Source of the DNA: a virus
Length of the DNA: 22,637 nucleotides
Direction: 5' to 3' (one strand)
IMG/VR virus record: IMGVR_UViG_3300025301_002500
Location: 1-22,637 of that record
Part shown: in pieces, positions 1-22,551 of the stretch
Position numbering within the stretch: position 1 is the stretch's first letter
Layout of the letters: the number at the start of each line of letters is the position of its first letter
Made by a program: the position numbers and the translations under genes
The notes under the pieces: model-generated
Seen by the model: only the letters and a program-made list of their open reading frames with translations
Database searches by the model: none
Told to the model about the DNA's origin: nothing

Positions 1-1
1 C

Positions 2-123
2 ACCAGTGTGTTGGAGGGAATGAACAACAAGATCAAGGTGATCAAGCGGGTGGCCTACGGCTACCGGGATAACGACTACTTCTTTCTGAAGATAAAAGCA
101 GCATTTCCCGGTAAAGCGCGATG
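2..123 (+). pseudogene. ISL3-family transposase, C-terminal end (cut by window start)
   Basis: Reading frame 2 from the first base gives 40 residues ending in TGA at 121-123. They include LEGMNNKIKVIKR, then AYGYRDNDYFFLKIKAAF, which I recognise as the C-terminal end of ISL3-type (IS204/IS1001/IS1165) DDE transposases. The Glu of LEG-NNKIK is in the position of the family's last catalytic acid. The gene is cut by the window edge, so whether it is intact cannot be told. It runs opposite to the prophage genes. The stop codon is followed almost at once by phage sequence, so the IS end is either inside the last codons or deleted. Confidence 0.8.
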
Positions 124-135
124 AACCTTTTTTGG
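110..135. other. IS/prophage junction
   Basis: Minus-strand phage coding runs up to about 128, and plus-strand transposase coding ends at 123. Read from the phage side, the IS would begin GGTTCATCGCGC, so the terminal inverted repeat may overlap the last transposase codons with the terminus near 127. ISL3 elements usually make 8-bp duplications; the 8 bases after 127 (TTTTTTGG) would be the copy on this side. This is an inference, because the other IS end is outside the window. Confidence 0.5.
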
Positions 136-3145: not shown

Positions 3146-3547
3146 TTACTCGACCCAGACGCCGCCAGACTCGACAGCCAGCACCTTGCCCGATGCAGAG
3201 CGGGTGCCTGCGCCGTCGGTACCGGCAACGGTCTCGTCGTCCAGAATGAAACAGTTTTTACCGACCAGATCCTGACCCACGGGGTCAGTGCCGGAGTTCT
3301 GCCAGAGGAAGGCCTGGCCACGGCGCACGCGCACAAAGGCGTCACCATCGGCACCACCGCTGTTGTCCACGTGTTCCTCGGCACGGCCGATGTAGGTCAG
3401 GCCGGTAGCTTCGGAGCCCGGTACCAGCATGCCGCTGGCATTCACGGCCACCTGGGCCCCCATGAAGATTTCCGCGCCGGCGGCCACGGCAAACGGGATC
3501 AGCTCGCCGTCACGGTTCGGGGTCATACGGTCTTGGGTGAGTGCCAT
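3146..3547 (-). CDS. Capsid cement / decoration protein (DUF2190-like)
   Basis: The 133-residue, Gly/Val/Ala-rich beta protein begins MALTQDRMTPNRDGELIPF, then AAGAEIFMGAQVAVN and LTYIGRAEEHVDNSGG, ending GKVLAVESGGVWVE. This pattern belongs to small proteins encoded between protease/scaffold and major capsid genes in Mu-like phages, usually annotated as capsid cement or DUF2190-like. It would bind the outside of the capsid shell. The start overlaps the protease stop (TAATG at 3545-3549), and the major head gene begins 12 bases downstream. A structural role is strongly suggested by position; the decoration role is inferred. Confidence 0.75.
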   Translation of the reverse strand: MALTQDRMTPNRDGELIPFAVAAGAEIFMGAQVAVNASGMLVPGSEATGLTYIGRAEEHVDNSGGADGDAFVRVRRGQAFLWQNSGTDPVGQDLVGKNCFILDDETVAGTDGAGTRSASGKVLAVESGGVWVE

Positions 3548-4620
3548 TACGCCAGCCCTCCGTAGGTTTTGAGATCCTCTTCGGAGTTGCCAAACATGCC
3601 GGCAATCTCGCGGGTCTCTGCGTTAAGGGCCTTTGAATCGCCGGGCACGTCCCGACCATCCAGCCCGGAATCCCCAGTGATTGCCGGGGCGCTGGCCACG
3701 AAGTCCTGGAAGCGCTTCAGACCGCCATCAGTGCGACACTGAGCCTTGTGGTACTCCACGGTGGCCGGGGCAATCTTGCCGTCTTCCACTGCCTGGTTAA
3801 TGGCGGTGTCGATGGCGTCGGTCTGGCGCTTCTCCTCGATGTCGGCCAGCTTCTTCTCCGCGTTGGCGGCGCGAGTCTGGGCCTGGTCGAAGTCGGCGCG
3901 GGGCACGTACTTGTCGAGGCTGGGGGTCACCTCACGGTTTTTCGCGGTTTCCAGGTCTTCCTGAATCCGGTTCAGAGCAGTCAATGCCTGCTGCTCTGTT
4001 GCGTCTTCAGGCAGACCCAGCCGCTTGAGCAGTTCTTTCCACACGGGGAATTCCTCCTGGTGGGTTTGCTGGTTCAGCGCTTTCAGCGCCAGGTTGGGTT
4101 GGTTGGTCAGGCCCGCGCTGGTCAGCCGTACAATCTGGCGCTCGTCGCGGGTAAACAGGAAAACGGGGGAGAGGTAGCGGTATTCCTTCGCCTTCAGCTG
4201 CTCGGCAGCCTTGGGAGTCCATTCAAAGCGGCCCCACACGGAGCCCTCGCGCACTTCCATTTCTTTCACCCAGGCCGCTGCCGGGGCGTCCTCGCCTTTC
4301 GGGGCTCGGTGCTCGCTGGCGTGCTCCCAGTCAATGACCAGGTCCATGCCGCGCAGGATGAACTGATCCACCACAGCCTGGGGGTTGGGGTTGCGCCAGG
4401 TCCGGCCATCGCGGCCGGTCAGCACCTCCCCAGCGGGTAGCAGCTCCACCCACTCCGGCACCTCGCCAGGGGGCAGCTCAACATTCAGCGCCAGGCGCTC
4501 GCCCGGGGCCGGCTCGGTGTTTAGGGCCTTGGCCAGGCCAACGCTCGGAGCCGATGCGAGACCCAGGGCAATGGCGGTGGCCATGGAGCGGCCGGTGTGA
4601 AGTACAAGTGTCTTAGTCAT
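3547..4620 (-). CDS. Phage protease/scaffold protein, Mu gpI family
   Basis: This 357-residue protein has the Mu I pattern: WVELLPAGEVLTGRDGRTW, then VIDWEHASEHRAP with the conserved His of the protease, AAAWVKEMEV, RYLSPVFLF and LTSAGLTNQPNLALKALN. From about residue 190 it becomes charged and helical (heptad-like near 240-290), as expected of the internal scaffold segment. The protease matures the prohead and itself. The first ~35 residues (MATAIALGLASAPSVGLAKA within them) resemble a hydrophobic leader and are not typical of the family. There is no Shine-Dalgarno before the ATG, although the leader is strikingly conserved with that of the endopeptidase gene. It is the first gene of the head operon. 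Confidence 0.88.
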   Translation of the reverse strand: MTKTLVLHTGRSMATAIALGLASAPSVGLAKALNTEPAPGERLALNVELPPGEVPEWVELLPAGEVLTGRDGRTWRNPNPQAVVDQFILRGMDLVIDWEHASEHRAPKGEDAPAAAWVKEMEVREGSVWGRFEWTPKAAEQLKAKEYRYLSPVFLFTRDERQIVRLTSAGLTNQPNLALKALNQQTHQEEFPVWKELLKRLGLPEDATEQQALTALNRIQEDLETAKNREVTPSLDKYVPRADFDQAQTRAANAEKKLADIEEKRQTDAIDTAINQAVEDGKIAPATVEYHKAQCRTDGGLKRFQDFVASAPAITGDSGLDGRDVPGDSKALNAETREIAGMFGNSEEDLKTYGGLA

Positions 4621-4627
4621 GGGGCCA

Positions 4628-4684
4628 CACTATCGGCGCCGTGCCGATGGCGTGGTCATGAGGGAGTTCAGGGGTGGTTTTCAG
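4628..4684 (-). promoter_or_regulatory. Late promoter PI: activator-type element plus -10-like box (copy 1)
   Basis: A 27-base block at 4658-4684 (plus strand ATGAGGGAGTTCAGG..., ending GGTTTTCAG) recurs with one change at 11843-11869. Both copies lie 38 bases before a start codon. Between block and ATG, CGCCGATA (minus strand, 4631-4638) also recurs at the same distance. GATAGT could be a -10 box; transcription would then begin almost at the ATG, and the 27-base block would sit near -37 to -63, where Mor and C bind in Mu. No -35 is evident for this proximal model. Confidence 0.6.
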
Positions 4685-4740
4685 GGTGGCGGGGCGCCAC
4701 AAAAAGAAGGGCCGCTGCGGGAGCGGTCATTGGCAGAGGC

Positions 4741-4769
4741 AGATTATCGGACGCGCCCATGGTTGGCAA
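4741..4769 (-). promoter_or_regulatory. Possible sigma70-type promoter upstream of the protease gene
   Basis: On the minus strand GATTGCCAAC is followed, 17 bases after TTGCCA, by TAATCT. The same arrangement (GATTGCCAAC, 17 bases, TATTCT) occurs at 11890-11918. Transcripts from here would carry a leader of about 115 bases. It could be a second promoter or a conserved activator-related site. Confidence 0.5.
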
Positions 4770-4901
4770 TCGCCCGCGAGGGCATTTAACACCCATTTAA
4801 AAACGTTTTTTGGGGTTCTGCCCCTGCCATGGTAGCCCCAAGCCCTTTAAGGGGCTTCTAGGGCTTCTGAGGGCGTTTTTATTTTTGGCGGGTTTTCGGC
4901 G
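4770..4901. other. Gene-free end of the packaging operon with alternative hairpins
   Basis: Behind the MuF-like stop at 4902 there is no gene. The segment holds repeated AGCCCC/AAGCCCT words and their complements (4835-4867), which allow several mutually exclusive hairpins, and a small GGGG-CAGAA-CCCC hairpin (4813-4825) near an A-run/T-run. I see no clean intrinsic terminator, although a termination function would fit the position ahead of a late promoter. Confidence 0.4.
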
Positions 4902-10519: not shown

Positions 10520-10743
10520 TACCCCCCCCGGCGGTCGTGGTCTGTCTGGCATTCAACGCAGCGCACGGCGCTGGGGTTGGCGTTCAGCCGGGCCGGGCTT
10601 AGCGGCTCCTCGCACTCCTTGCAAAGTCGCTGGCCGTTTACCTCCAGCGGCTGCTCGGTCGGGGCGCTGCGGGCCTCGTCTATCCCGGCCTGGCGCAGGC
10701 GCTCGGTCAGCGCTTGCGCGCCTTCGTAAACCCACTCATCCAC
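10519..10743 (-). CDS. TraR/DksA-type C4 zinc-finger protein
   Basis: This 74-residue protein carries LCKECEEPLSPARLNANPSAVRCVECQ, the C4 zinc finger (CxxC-x17-CxxC) of short TraR/DksA proteins, after a helical N-terminus (DEWVYEGAQALTERLRQAG). TraR binds the RNA polymerase secondary channel and mimics DksA with ppGpp; whether this copy does so is not known. I chose GTG at 10741-10743 because GGGAGG lies 8 bases upstream and it overlaps the holin stop (GTGGATGA). An ATG at 10764 is the alternative. Small TraR-like genes beside lysis genes are common in Mu-like and P2-like phages. Confidence 0.82.
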   Translation of the reverse strand: MDEWVYEGAQALTERLRQAGIDEARSAPTEQPLEVNGQRLCKECEEPLSPARLNANPSAVRCVECQTDHDRRGG

Positions 10744-11314
10744 GGGCCTTGCCTCCCATTCCATCCATCAGTTTGTCGAGCAGGCCCCGGCCGTCCTGAC
10801 CGGCAGTGGTGCGCTTGTCGCGGCTGCGGGCGCCGATATTGATGCCCAGGATGGACAGGGCGATGCCCCACATGGGCGTGAGCGCAGTCACGGCATTGAT
10901 CAGAGCGGCGGCATTGCTCGGCTCAGACACTATGGCCCAGGCGATGGCCGCCGACTGGATCAGCCAGGTAAGCGCCACCATGTAACCGAACGTGGGGCGC
11001 CACCGGCGCACGTAGCCGTCTTGCGCGCTGGCCTCGGCCCGCATGGTTTTGTTGATCTCGGTCAACCGGGTGGTCTCGGCCTCAATCACCATGCGGCGCA
11101 GTTCGCGCTCGTGCTCCCGCTCGGCGGCCTGCAGTTTGGCCAGGGCCTGCGGGTCTGCCTGGATGGCTTTATGGACCGCCTCGGGGCTGTCCTCCACACC
11201 CAGCACGCTGGCAATCAGGGTTCCTGCAGCGCCTCCGGCAGGCCCCAGGGCGCTGCCCAGCAGCGGGGCTGCCTTGCCGATAACCTCTTTAACGCCGGCC
11301 CAACTCCAGTCCAT
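10736..11314 (-). CDS. Holin, three-TM family
   Basis: The 192-residue product starts at ATG 11312-11314, overlapping the endopeptidase stop (TGATG). It opens MDWSWAGVKEVIGKAAPLLG, then a small hydrophobic stretch ALGPAGGAAGTLIASVLG and a charged helix (LQAAEREHERELRRMVIEAE). Two good membrane helices follow: YMVALTWLIQSAAIAWAIV and NAVTALTPMWGIALSILGI. The RRWRPTFGYMVALTW signature is typical of the 3TM holin family first noted in gene-transfer agents. It permeabilises the inner membrane to let the endolysin out. A longer upstream reading exists but lies inside the endopeptidase gene and is rejected. Confidence 0.87.
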   Translation of the reverse strand: MDWSWAGVKEVIGKAAPLLGSALGPAGGAAGTLIASVLGVEDSPEAVHKAIQADPQALAKLQAAEREHERELRRMVIEAETTRLTEINKTMRAEASAQDGYVRRWRPTFGYMVALTWLIQSAAIAWAIVSEPSNAAALINAVTALTPMWGIALSILGINIGARSRDKRTTAGQDGRGLLDKLMDGMGGKARG

Positions 11315-11805
11315 CAGCCGGCCCTCCGCAGTGCTTCTTCCATGGTGTGGATGCCTTCCAGGTAAACCGTGCGGCCGTTGACCTTCACGGCGGTCAGCAG
11401 CTGGCGCCGGGGTTCTTCGCCAGGGGCAGCCATGCCCACATGCACCCATTGGCCGAACTCGTGAATAACCTGGTCAAATGGCACGGCGCTGGCTTCGTAC
11501 CAGCGGGCCACCTGGTGGGGCGTGTGACCGCTCACGGAGATATCCGCCGCGAGGCCGGGAACGTGGGCGCTGGTAGAGCTGCCACCGATGCGGCTGTTCA
11601 GAGCGGGCGGCCTGTAGCCGGAGCTGATAAAGATCGGCCCCAGGGCATCGCGCGCTGGCTGCAGCCCACGGCGGGCCAGGTGGTGGAGGTTGGAGAAAAC
11701 CGAGCTACCCTCGGGAACCGCCATGCTGATCTCAAGGCGCGCGGCGGTCTGCGAGCGGGTGAACTCGTCCAGGTAAAAGTTGGGAGATAGCTTCTGTCGT
11801 TTCAT
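11314..11805 (-). CDS. M15 peptidase endolysin (D-Ala-D-Ala carboxypeptidase-like)
   Basis: The 163-residue protein carries the M15 zinc-peptidase motifs: ISSGYRPPALNSRIGGSSTSAH (S79-A-H81), AADI with zinc ligand D88, and WVHVGM with H122. The N-terminus (LSPNFYLDEFTRSQTAARL) is the usual start of the M15_3 phage type. It cleaves peptidoglycan cross-links during lysis. There is no signal peptide, so release depends on the holin downstream. The ATG has no Shine-Dalgarno, and the leader is nearly identical in layout to that of the protease gene. It is the first gene of the lysis-packaging operon, the place of Mu lys. Confidence 0.9.
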   Translation of the reverse strand: MKRQKLSPNFYLDEFTRSQTAARLEISMAVPEGSSVFSNLHHLARRGLQPARDALGPIFISSGYRPPALNSRIGGSSTSAHVPGLAADISVSGHTPHQVARWYEASAVPFDQVIHEFGQWVHVGMAAPGEEPRRQLLTAVKVNGRTVYLEGIHTMEEALRRAG

Positions 11806-11813
11806 GCCCGCAG

Positions 11814-11869
11814 GTTATCGGCGGGCGGCCGCAGCGGCGGCTATGAGGGGGTTCAGGGGTGGTTTTCAG
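11814..11869 (-). promoter_or_regulatory. Late promoter Plys: activator-type element plus -10-like box (copy 2)
   Basis: The 27-base block at 11843-11869 matches 4658-4684 in 26 positions. CGCCGATA (minus strand, 11816-11823) recurs 11 bases from the ATG, exactly as at copy 1. GATAAC would be the -10-like hexamer. The TTCAG word occurs twice in the block, 13 bases apart. The 37-base gap between block and start codon is conserved in length though not in most of its sequence. Confidence 0.6.
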
Positions 11870-11889
11870 AGGGGCGGGAAAGTGAGGGA

Positions 11890-11918
11890 AGAATAACCGG
11901 AGGGCGGCGTGTTGGCAA
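11890..11918 (-). promoter_or_regulatory. Possible sigma70-type promoter upstream of the endopeptidase gene
   Basis: Minus strand TTGCCA, 17 bases, TATTCT, inside a shared GATTGCCAAC word. It is the counterpart of 4741-4769, but its distance to the start codon is 36 bases shorter than there. It lies just behind the stop of the 68-residue gene (11926). Confidence 0.5.
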
Positions 11919-11925
11919 TCCGCTC

Positions 11926-12132
11926 CTACTTGAAAGGACTCCGATGGCGCAAAGTGTTGAGCCTTTGGCGCCAGTCCTCTTTTTCTTCGGTGTCGCTGAT
12001 CGCTGCCAGCCATTGCCGGATCTGCGCTGGGCGGCGACTCAGGGTGATGTTTAGCGCCTGGTGCCAGCGCTGCTTGTCTCGCTCGATATCGGCCCGCTGG
12101 TCAGCGGGAAGCTCTGCCAGGTTATAGCTCAC
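11926..12132 (-). CDS. Small hypothetical protein after the Mor-like activator
   Basis: The 68 residues (MSYNLAELPADQRADIERDK, then LSRRPAQIRQWLAAISDTEE, ending LRHRSPFK) are charged, probably all helical, with no membrane segment. I do not recognise a named family; the position directly behind Mor is often filled by a small hydrophilic protein in such phages. The start is GTG at 12130-12132, overlapping the Mor stop by 11 bases, with GGAG about 8 bases upstream. It is the last early/middle gene before the lysis promoter region, so it might modulate the activator, but that is speculation. Confidence 0.7.
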   Translation of the reverse strand: MSYNLAELPADQRADIERDKQRWHQALNITLSRRPAQIRQWLAAISDTEEKEDWRQRLNTLRHRSPFK

Positions 12133-12517
12133 CGAACAGCTCCGCCTGGTTATCGCTGGGCAGATCCTCGGCCAGGATCTCCCACACGCGGCGCTCGGTC
12201 AGCTGGTACCGGCGGGCGAGGCGGCGGGCCGAAACACCCTCCCGGTGCTCAGCCTGCATGCGGCGGTTGCGGGCGCGCTTGATCGCGGCGCTGGCCGTGG
12301 GCACATCAAACTCTTCCAGGCCGTAGTGGCAGGACAGCAGCCGGGCCGCCTCCAGCCCCAGCAGCTCGGCCAGGGGGTGAGCCTCGGGCATTTTCACAGG
12401 CACGCGCAGGCGGGTGCCGCCATAGGCGGCAACCAGCTTGCGAGTGGCTTCCAGGCCGATGATATCGCTCATTTCCTTCAGTGACATTGGCAGGTGCTCG
12501 GTATCCCACTCGCTCAC
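12122..12517 (-). CDS. mor: Mor/C-family transcription activator
   Basis: This 131-residue protein fits the Mor family: an N-terminal dimerisation part (MSLKEMSDIIGLEATRKLVAAYGGTRLRVP, HPLAELLGLEAARLL), then a basic linker and C-terminal HTH (VSARRLARRYQLTERRVWEILAE). In Mu, Mor activates the middle promoter and its relative C the late promoters. Only one such gene is seen here, so it probably does both jobs. The likely targets are the repeated elements at 11843-11869 and 4658-4684. The start is GTG 12515-12517 with GGAGG 5 bases upstream. Confidence 0.88.
   Translation of the reverse strand: MSEWDTEHLPMSLKEMSDIIGLEATRKLVAAYGGTRLRVPVKMPEAHPLAELLGLEAARLLSCHYGLEEFDVPTASAAIKRARNRRMQAEHREGVSARRLARRYQLTERRVWEILAEDLPSDNQAELFGEL

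Positions 12518-22474: not shown

Positions 22475-22551
<77 letters not shown>

Follow-up and report, generated by a model that had tools for sequence, protein, structure and literature searches.

The question raised by this locus is what a sequence cassette repeated upstream of two phage genes does, and why part of it keeps an identical distance to both start codons. The window, that is, the whole 22,637-base virus record analysed here, is part of a Mu-like transposable prophage with its genes on the minus strand, and its gene order comprises the Ner region, a MuA-type transposase (phrog_310), a MuB-type ATPase (phrog_296), a GemA-like protein and a Mor/C-family activator, with further genes for lysis, terminase, portal, an F-like protein, protease and the major head protein. 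Tail genes are absent from the record, whose left end (window 1–124) codes for the C-terminal end of an apparent IS transposase (LEGMNNKIKVIKRVAYGYRDNDYFFLKIKAAFPGKAR); truncation of the prophage, or a cut made by an IS, is thus possible. A tRNA-Arg gene adjoins the prophage end (about 22480–22551). Between the F-like gene and the protease, a phased TTTTTAAATGGG/GTTAAATG repeat (4771–4815) is kept in relatives; Mu carries TTTTTAAACCGGTATTTAACGG at the equivalent place, immediately right of the gyrase cut site, and the phased repeat may represent the right arm of a strong site for gyrase. The features used below are as follows:

3547–4620, minus strand: head maturation protease, first gene of the head operon (phrog_328, E 2.1e-87; Shine-Dalgarno energy −3.1)
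4618–4620, minus strand: protease ATG, predicted transcript start
4627–4632, minus strand: putative −10 hexamer TAGTGT (P2), 6 nt before the protease ATG
4657–4672, minus strand: predicted activator dyad of the protease promoter, CCTGAACTCCCTCATG, 10/12 to CCTGAA-N4-TTCAGG
4658–4684, minus strand: 27-base block, protease copy, holding the upstream CTGAA half-site
4741–4769, minus strand: candidate sigma70-like promoter P1 of the protease, TTGCCA (4764–4769), 17 nt, TAATCT (4741–4746)
11314–11805, minus strand: M15 peptidase endolysin, first gene of the lysis operon (phrog_894, PF08291; Shine-Dalgarno energy +0.3)
11803–11805, minus strand: endolysin ATG, predicted transcript start
11812–11817, minus strand: putative −10 hexamer TAACCT (P2), 6 nt before the endolysin ATG
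11842–11857, minus strand: predicted activator dyad of the lysis promoter, CCTGAACCCCCTCATA, 9/12
11843–11869, minus strand: 27-base block, second copy (lysis)
11890–11918, minus strand: candidate sigma70-like promoter P1 of lysis, TTGCCA (11913–11918), 17 nt, TATTCT (11890–11895)
12122–12517, minus strand: Mor/C-family late activator, 131 aa, helix LTERRVWEIL (phrog_836, E 1.8e-35; PF08765, E 1.8e-10)

The initial annotation had described the cassette at 4621–4769 with a copy at 11806–11918, and both are present on the minus strand as described. The 27-base block common to the protease and endopeptidase genes (4658–4684 versus 11843–11869) is identical at 26/27 positions, the CGCCGATA box and the −10 lie at equal distances from the ATGs at 4620 and 11805, and GATTGCCAAC (4762–4771 and 11911–11920), followed by TAATCT/TATTCT, lies at distances that differ between the two genes. 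No further copy of the block was found in the window record. It is not the whole block that is conserved as a site but a 16-bp inverted repeat, CCTGAA-N4-TTCAGG, located at its downstream edge. Counted from the A of the ATG, both dyads occupy −52 to −37 and both −10 hexamers −12 to −7, separated by a GC-rich spacer of 24 nt in which no −35 hexamer was found in either window copy. Because the −10 box opens with an in-frame stop (TAG or TAA), the ORFs cannot be extended upstream. The earlier placement of a −10 near the ATG is supported by comparison with relatives, and its proposed form, GATA(G/A)(T/C), is replaced by the conserved hexamer TAGTGT/TAACCT (TANNNT) two bases downstream. The composite pattern (dyad at ≥9/12, N24, TANNNT, N6, ATG) occurs twice in the window, whereas 200 first-order Markov shuffles of the window gave 0.00 on average; the repeat is real and significant. 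A candidate RNA hairpin flanking the −10 (GCCGC...GCGGC), judged by eye, was kept by some members only, so that hexamer and spacing are conserved and the pairing is not.

Neither ATG has a Shine-Dalgarno sequence, as had been noted, with duplex energies of −3.1 (protease) and +0.3 kcal/mol (endolysin), versus −5.4 kcal/mol or stronger at 19/23 other window starts examined; a good Shine-Dalgarno is also missing at four other window genes. The promoter pattern of leaderless genes, TANNNT 6–7 bp before the start and no Shine-Dalgarno, is found at both window genes, TAGTGT and TAACCT each standing 6 nt from the ATG. In phage B23 (KY939598), the two site-bearing genes have the weakest Shine-Dalgarno among 47 annotated starts, and TANNNT-N6-start occurs at these two genes only. 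Comparative evidence favours the earlier proposal that the transcripts may be leaderless or nearly so.

B23 and the IMG/VR relatives have the arrangement twice and no more, ahead of the protease gene and ahead of the gene that opens the lysis operon; in B23 these genes head the lysis and protease/capsid operons. The first lysis gene varies between phages (M15 peptidase, membrane protein, another 153-aa protein), and the box from promoter to ATG is constant. One relative (L037) resembles L034 up to the dyad (0.83) and, from there on, B23 (0.98, then 0.96 in the gene); the junction is therefore swapped as a module. Such mosaic junctions, with L037 passing from L034-like to B23-like around the dyad, would also suit an RNA or DNA element without a promoter role (terminator, packaging or recombination site) that was copied before two operons, but its fixed register to the ATG, its position before the first gene of a late operon, the missing T-run and the co-occurring activator gene make this explanation highly improbable.

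Since the window record has no tail genes, the third copy that had been suggested before the tail operon was sought in relatives, and none with the full ruler (dyad, −10 and ATG at these spacings) was found in B23 or in G001 (protease 94% identical), which have two sites each. B23 (KY939598.1) has an 11/12 dyad at 28421–28436, between the DNA circularisation gene and the next gene, that lacks a −10 at +24 and is conserved in L244. Chromohalobacter phage YPCBV-1 and Halomonas-group prophages carry a similar dyad (GCTGAAGNCNTTC) with the −10 at a nearly equal offset, and the ATG lies further downstream, by ~19 nt behind GGAGG at the protease and by ~40 nt behind GGAG at the lysis gene. As dyad and −10 are kept but the ATG is displaced behind a Shine-Dalgarno, the promoter ruler is common to both groups and the leader is where they differ. 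These sites were found by a core search, a prior general search for repeated dyads (L210–L215) having yielded mostly chance coding repeats. In YPCBV-1 (OP380511.1, about 10560–10830), the start of the lysis gene is present twice with N between the copies, which suggests an assembly duplication. No obvious copy of the arrangement was found in phage B3 or Shewanella phage MuM16-2. Because the relatives come from few independent lineages, counts over them overstate independence.

The pair formed by GATTGCCAAC and TAATCT/TATTCT is predicted to be a separate, clade-restricted sigma70-like promoter (P1; TTGCCA-N17/18-TANYCT). Within the Marinobacter-phage clade, both operons keep P1, whose sequence is nearer the sigma70 consensus than that of P2; P1 might therefore be the true late promoter, with the dyad as an operator or RNA hairpin in its leader (CCUGAA-N4-UUCAGG could fold) and the −10-like box incidental. 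However, other Mor-positive phages that share the dyad/−10/ATG ruler have no P1, and its distance to the dyad varies (32–34 nt at lysis, 57 or 66–68 nt at the protease), whereas the dyad-to-−10 and −10-to-ATG distances are fixed; a P1 transcript would have no Shine-Dalgarno ahead of its first ORF, and the window dyads pair too weakly for a stable hairpin. We regard P1 as a quite improbable late promoter, and P2, with its dyad, as the better candidate.

The initial annotation had taken the whole 27-base block for a Mor/C-family site. Comparative evidence favours the assignment to this family and narrows the likely site to the 16-bp dyad. The same phage encodes an activator of this family (PF08765 and phrog_836 on 12122–12517), and the dyad has the form of a Mor-type element (16 bp, 5-bp inverted repeats, 6-bp spacer), being perfect in B23 and most relatives, versus 9 and 10 of 12 positions in the window copies. 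The Mu Mor element, likewise of 16 bp with 5-bp inverted repeats, is centred at −43.5 and substitutes for the −35 (PMC4390567); with transcription starting on the A of the ATG, the dyad here would be centred at −44.5. In all aligned activators from CTGAA-dyad phages, T-E-R opens the predicted recognition helix, also where overall identity is low, the equivalent position being S-Q-P in Mu C and S-D-R in Casadabanvirus/D3112-like activators. In four relatives (L232, L233, L240 and L241), the activator gene ends 10–13 bp ahead of the lysis dyad. A fold model of the activator, moderately confident (pLDDT 74.5), placed Mu C (9L0X) and Mor (1RR7) at ranks 1–4 and 7, with no PDB match at E<0.001, and searching PDB sequences with a profile gave no match. 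The window copies have an extra CTGAA half-site 13 bp upstream, and as the PDB transcription complex 9L0X contains four Mu C copies (chains G–J), a second dimer might contact this half-site.

A blind scan of viral contigs with the pattern CCTGAANNNNYTCAKG-N24-TANNNT-N6-ATG matched 45 stretches. Matches outside the B23 clade precede GH108 lysozymes, M15-like peptidases, DUF2213 head genes and proteases; they include distantly related transposable phages, with the site before lysis or head genes, and some matches at short ORFs are chance. A Mu-type transposase was found in 11/13 matched contigs tested. PF08765 (Mor) was found in 11/17 matched contigs, versus 2/40 controls that matched with loose spacing only (Fisher P 4e-6); the six Mor-less matched contigs are fragments of ≤13.2 kb or an unrelated match, and both Mor-positive controls turned out to have real sites, one ahead of a small membrane protein and the other ahead of a peptidase. 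Among loose-spacing matches, spacings of 24 and 6 formed the largest of 145 bins (11 sites), followed by 24 and 7 (6 sites), with a mean of ~1 per bin. When a perfect dyad was required, 398 Pseudomonadota genomes gave zero matches; with a looser dyad, sites were found in 2/163 genomes of the host family, Marinobacter halodurans (G074) and G221, the latter with a pair 7.3 kb apart. The proposed link between Mor and the site draws on this co-occurrence and on helix conservation, and in part it arises because Mor and the site are both traits of Mu-like phages.

Taken as a whole, the sequence evidence (dyad, fixed 24- and 6-nt spacings, no Shine-Dalgarno or −35, Mor-family co-occurrence) leads us to infer binding, activation, a transcript 5′ end at the ATG and leaderless translation, and we estimate at roughly 0.8 the probability that the two copies are Mor/C-activated late promoters of a Mu-like phage giving leaderless mRNAs. 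A dimer of the 12122–12517 activator would bind the 16-bp dyad, replace the missing −35 and recruit sigma70 RNA polymerase to the TANNNT −10, and transcription would begin on the first base of the start codon, give or take about 2 nt. No space would then remain for a ribosome-binding site, the leading protein of the lysis operon and that of the protease/capsid operon would each be made from a leaderless mRNA, and the downstream genes of both operons would rely on their own Shine-Dalgarno sequences. Many relatives appear to work likewise.

Transcription starts 5–9 nt past the −10 are all known, and P2 could be the late promoter with a start several bases upstream of the ATG, leaving a leader of 3–8 nt that lacks a Shine-Dalgarno and is not strictly leaderless. 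A few members have 7–8 nt between −10 and ATG, and a Mor centre at −43.5 would put the start 1 nt before the ATG; against this, the base before the A of the ATG is a pyrimidine, the preferred initiator context, in 34/36 distinct sites, and the 6-nt gap sets the seventh base, the usual start, on that A. A short leader is therefore improbable, and a start at the A of the ATG is preferred.

On the reading as leaderless late promoters, key lysis and head genes are predicted to be translated without a ribosome-binding site, late promoters of many Mu-like phages gain a fixed-ruler definition, and a likely binding site is proposed for a large activator family. The open-access literature searched yielded neither a paper on leaderless late promoters of transposable phages nor a description of the late control of many such Mu-like phages. 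A more speculative idea, which we consider doubtful, is that leaderlessness is itself regulatory, a transcription-translation gate on lysis and head assembly that spread across transposable phages: ribosomes would ignore the Shine-Dalgarno-less first ORFs on P1 or other upstream transcripts, so that protein would come solely from activator-started leaderless mRNAs.

Among known systems, the Mu middle promoter Pm with Mor shares the 16-bp element, 5-bp inverted repeats, 6-bp spacer and lack of a −35 (PMC4390567), and its centre at −43.5 would be close to the −44.5 expected here for a start at the A of the ATG; the half-site here is CCTGA/TCAGG, late operons would be driven, and the ATG sits at the predicted transcript start. 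Mu Plys and PI with C share the same two genome positions, a related activator family and a site upstream of the −35 (PMC4461284). Mu lys and I have Shine-Dalgarno-like sequences before their starts (CAGGGAAGC and AGCAGGAC) that are absent here, and the Mu C helix reads SQPQIY, compared with TERRVW in the window activator.

Casadabanvirus (D3112, DMS3, LESphi4) shares an arrangement in which GTTGAACCCCTTC precedes lysis and protease genes with the ATG 51–52 nt from its start, and the protease version of this element occurs in 122 phage records; the dyad there is degenerate, the −10 is CACGAT/CACCAT, not TANNNT, and the activator helix is SDRWIW. In DMS3 (NC_008717.1, 19037 and 19163), the predicted protease ATG is in frame with the annotated start and 126 nt upstream of it, which suggests that the annotation begins 126 nt too late; the corresponding ATG of D3112 does not share the reading frame of the start annotated there. 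The ruler can thus correct start-codon annotation, as for the DMS3 protease. Leaderless genes of D. radiodurans have TANNNT about 6–7 bp before the ORF (PMC12340547), and share with the window genes this −10-to-start spacing and the absence of a Shine-Dalgarno; the promoter here differs in having a putative activator dyad and in being restricted to phage late operons.
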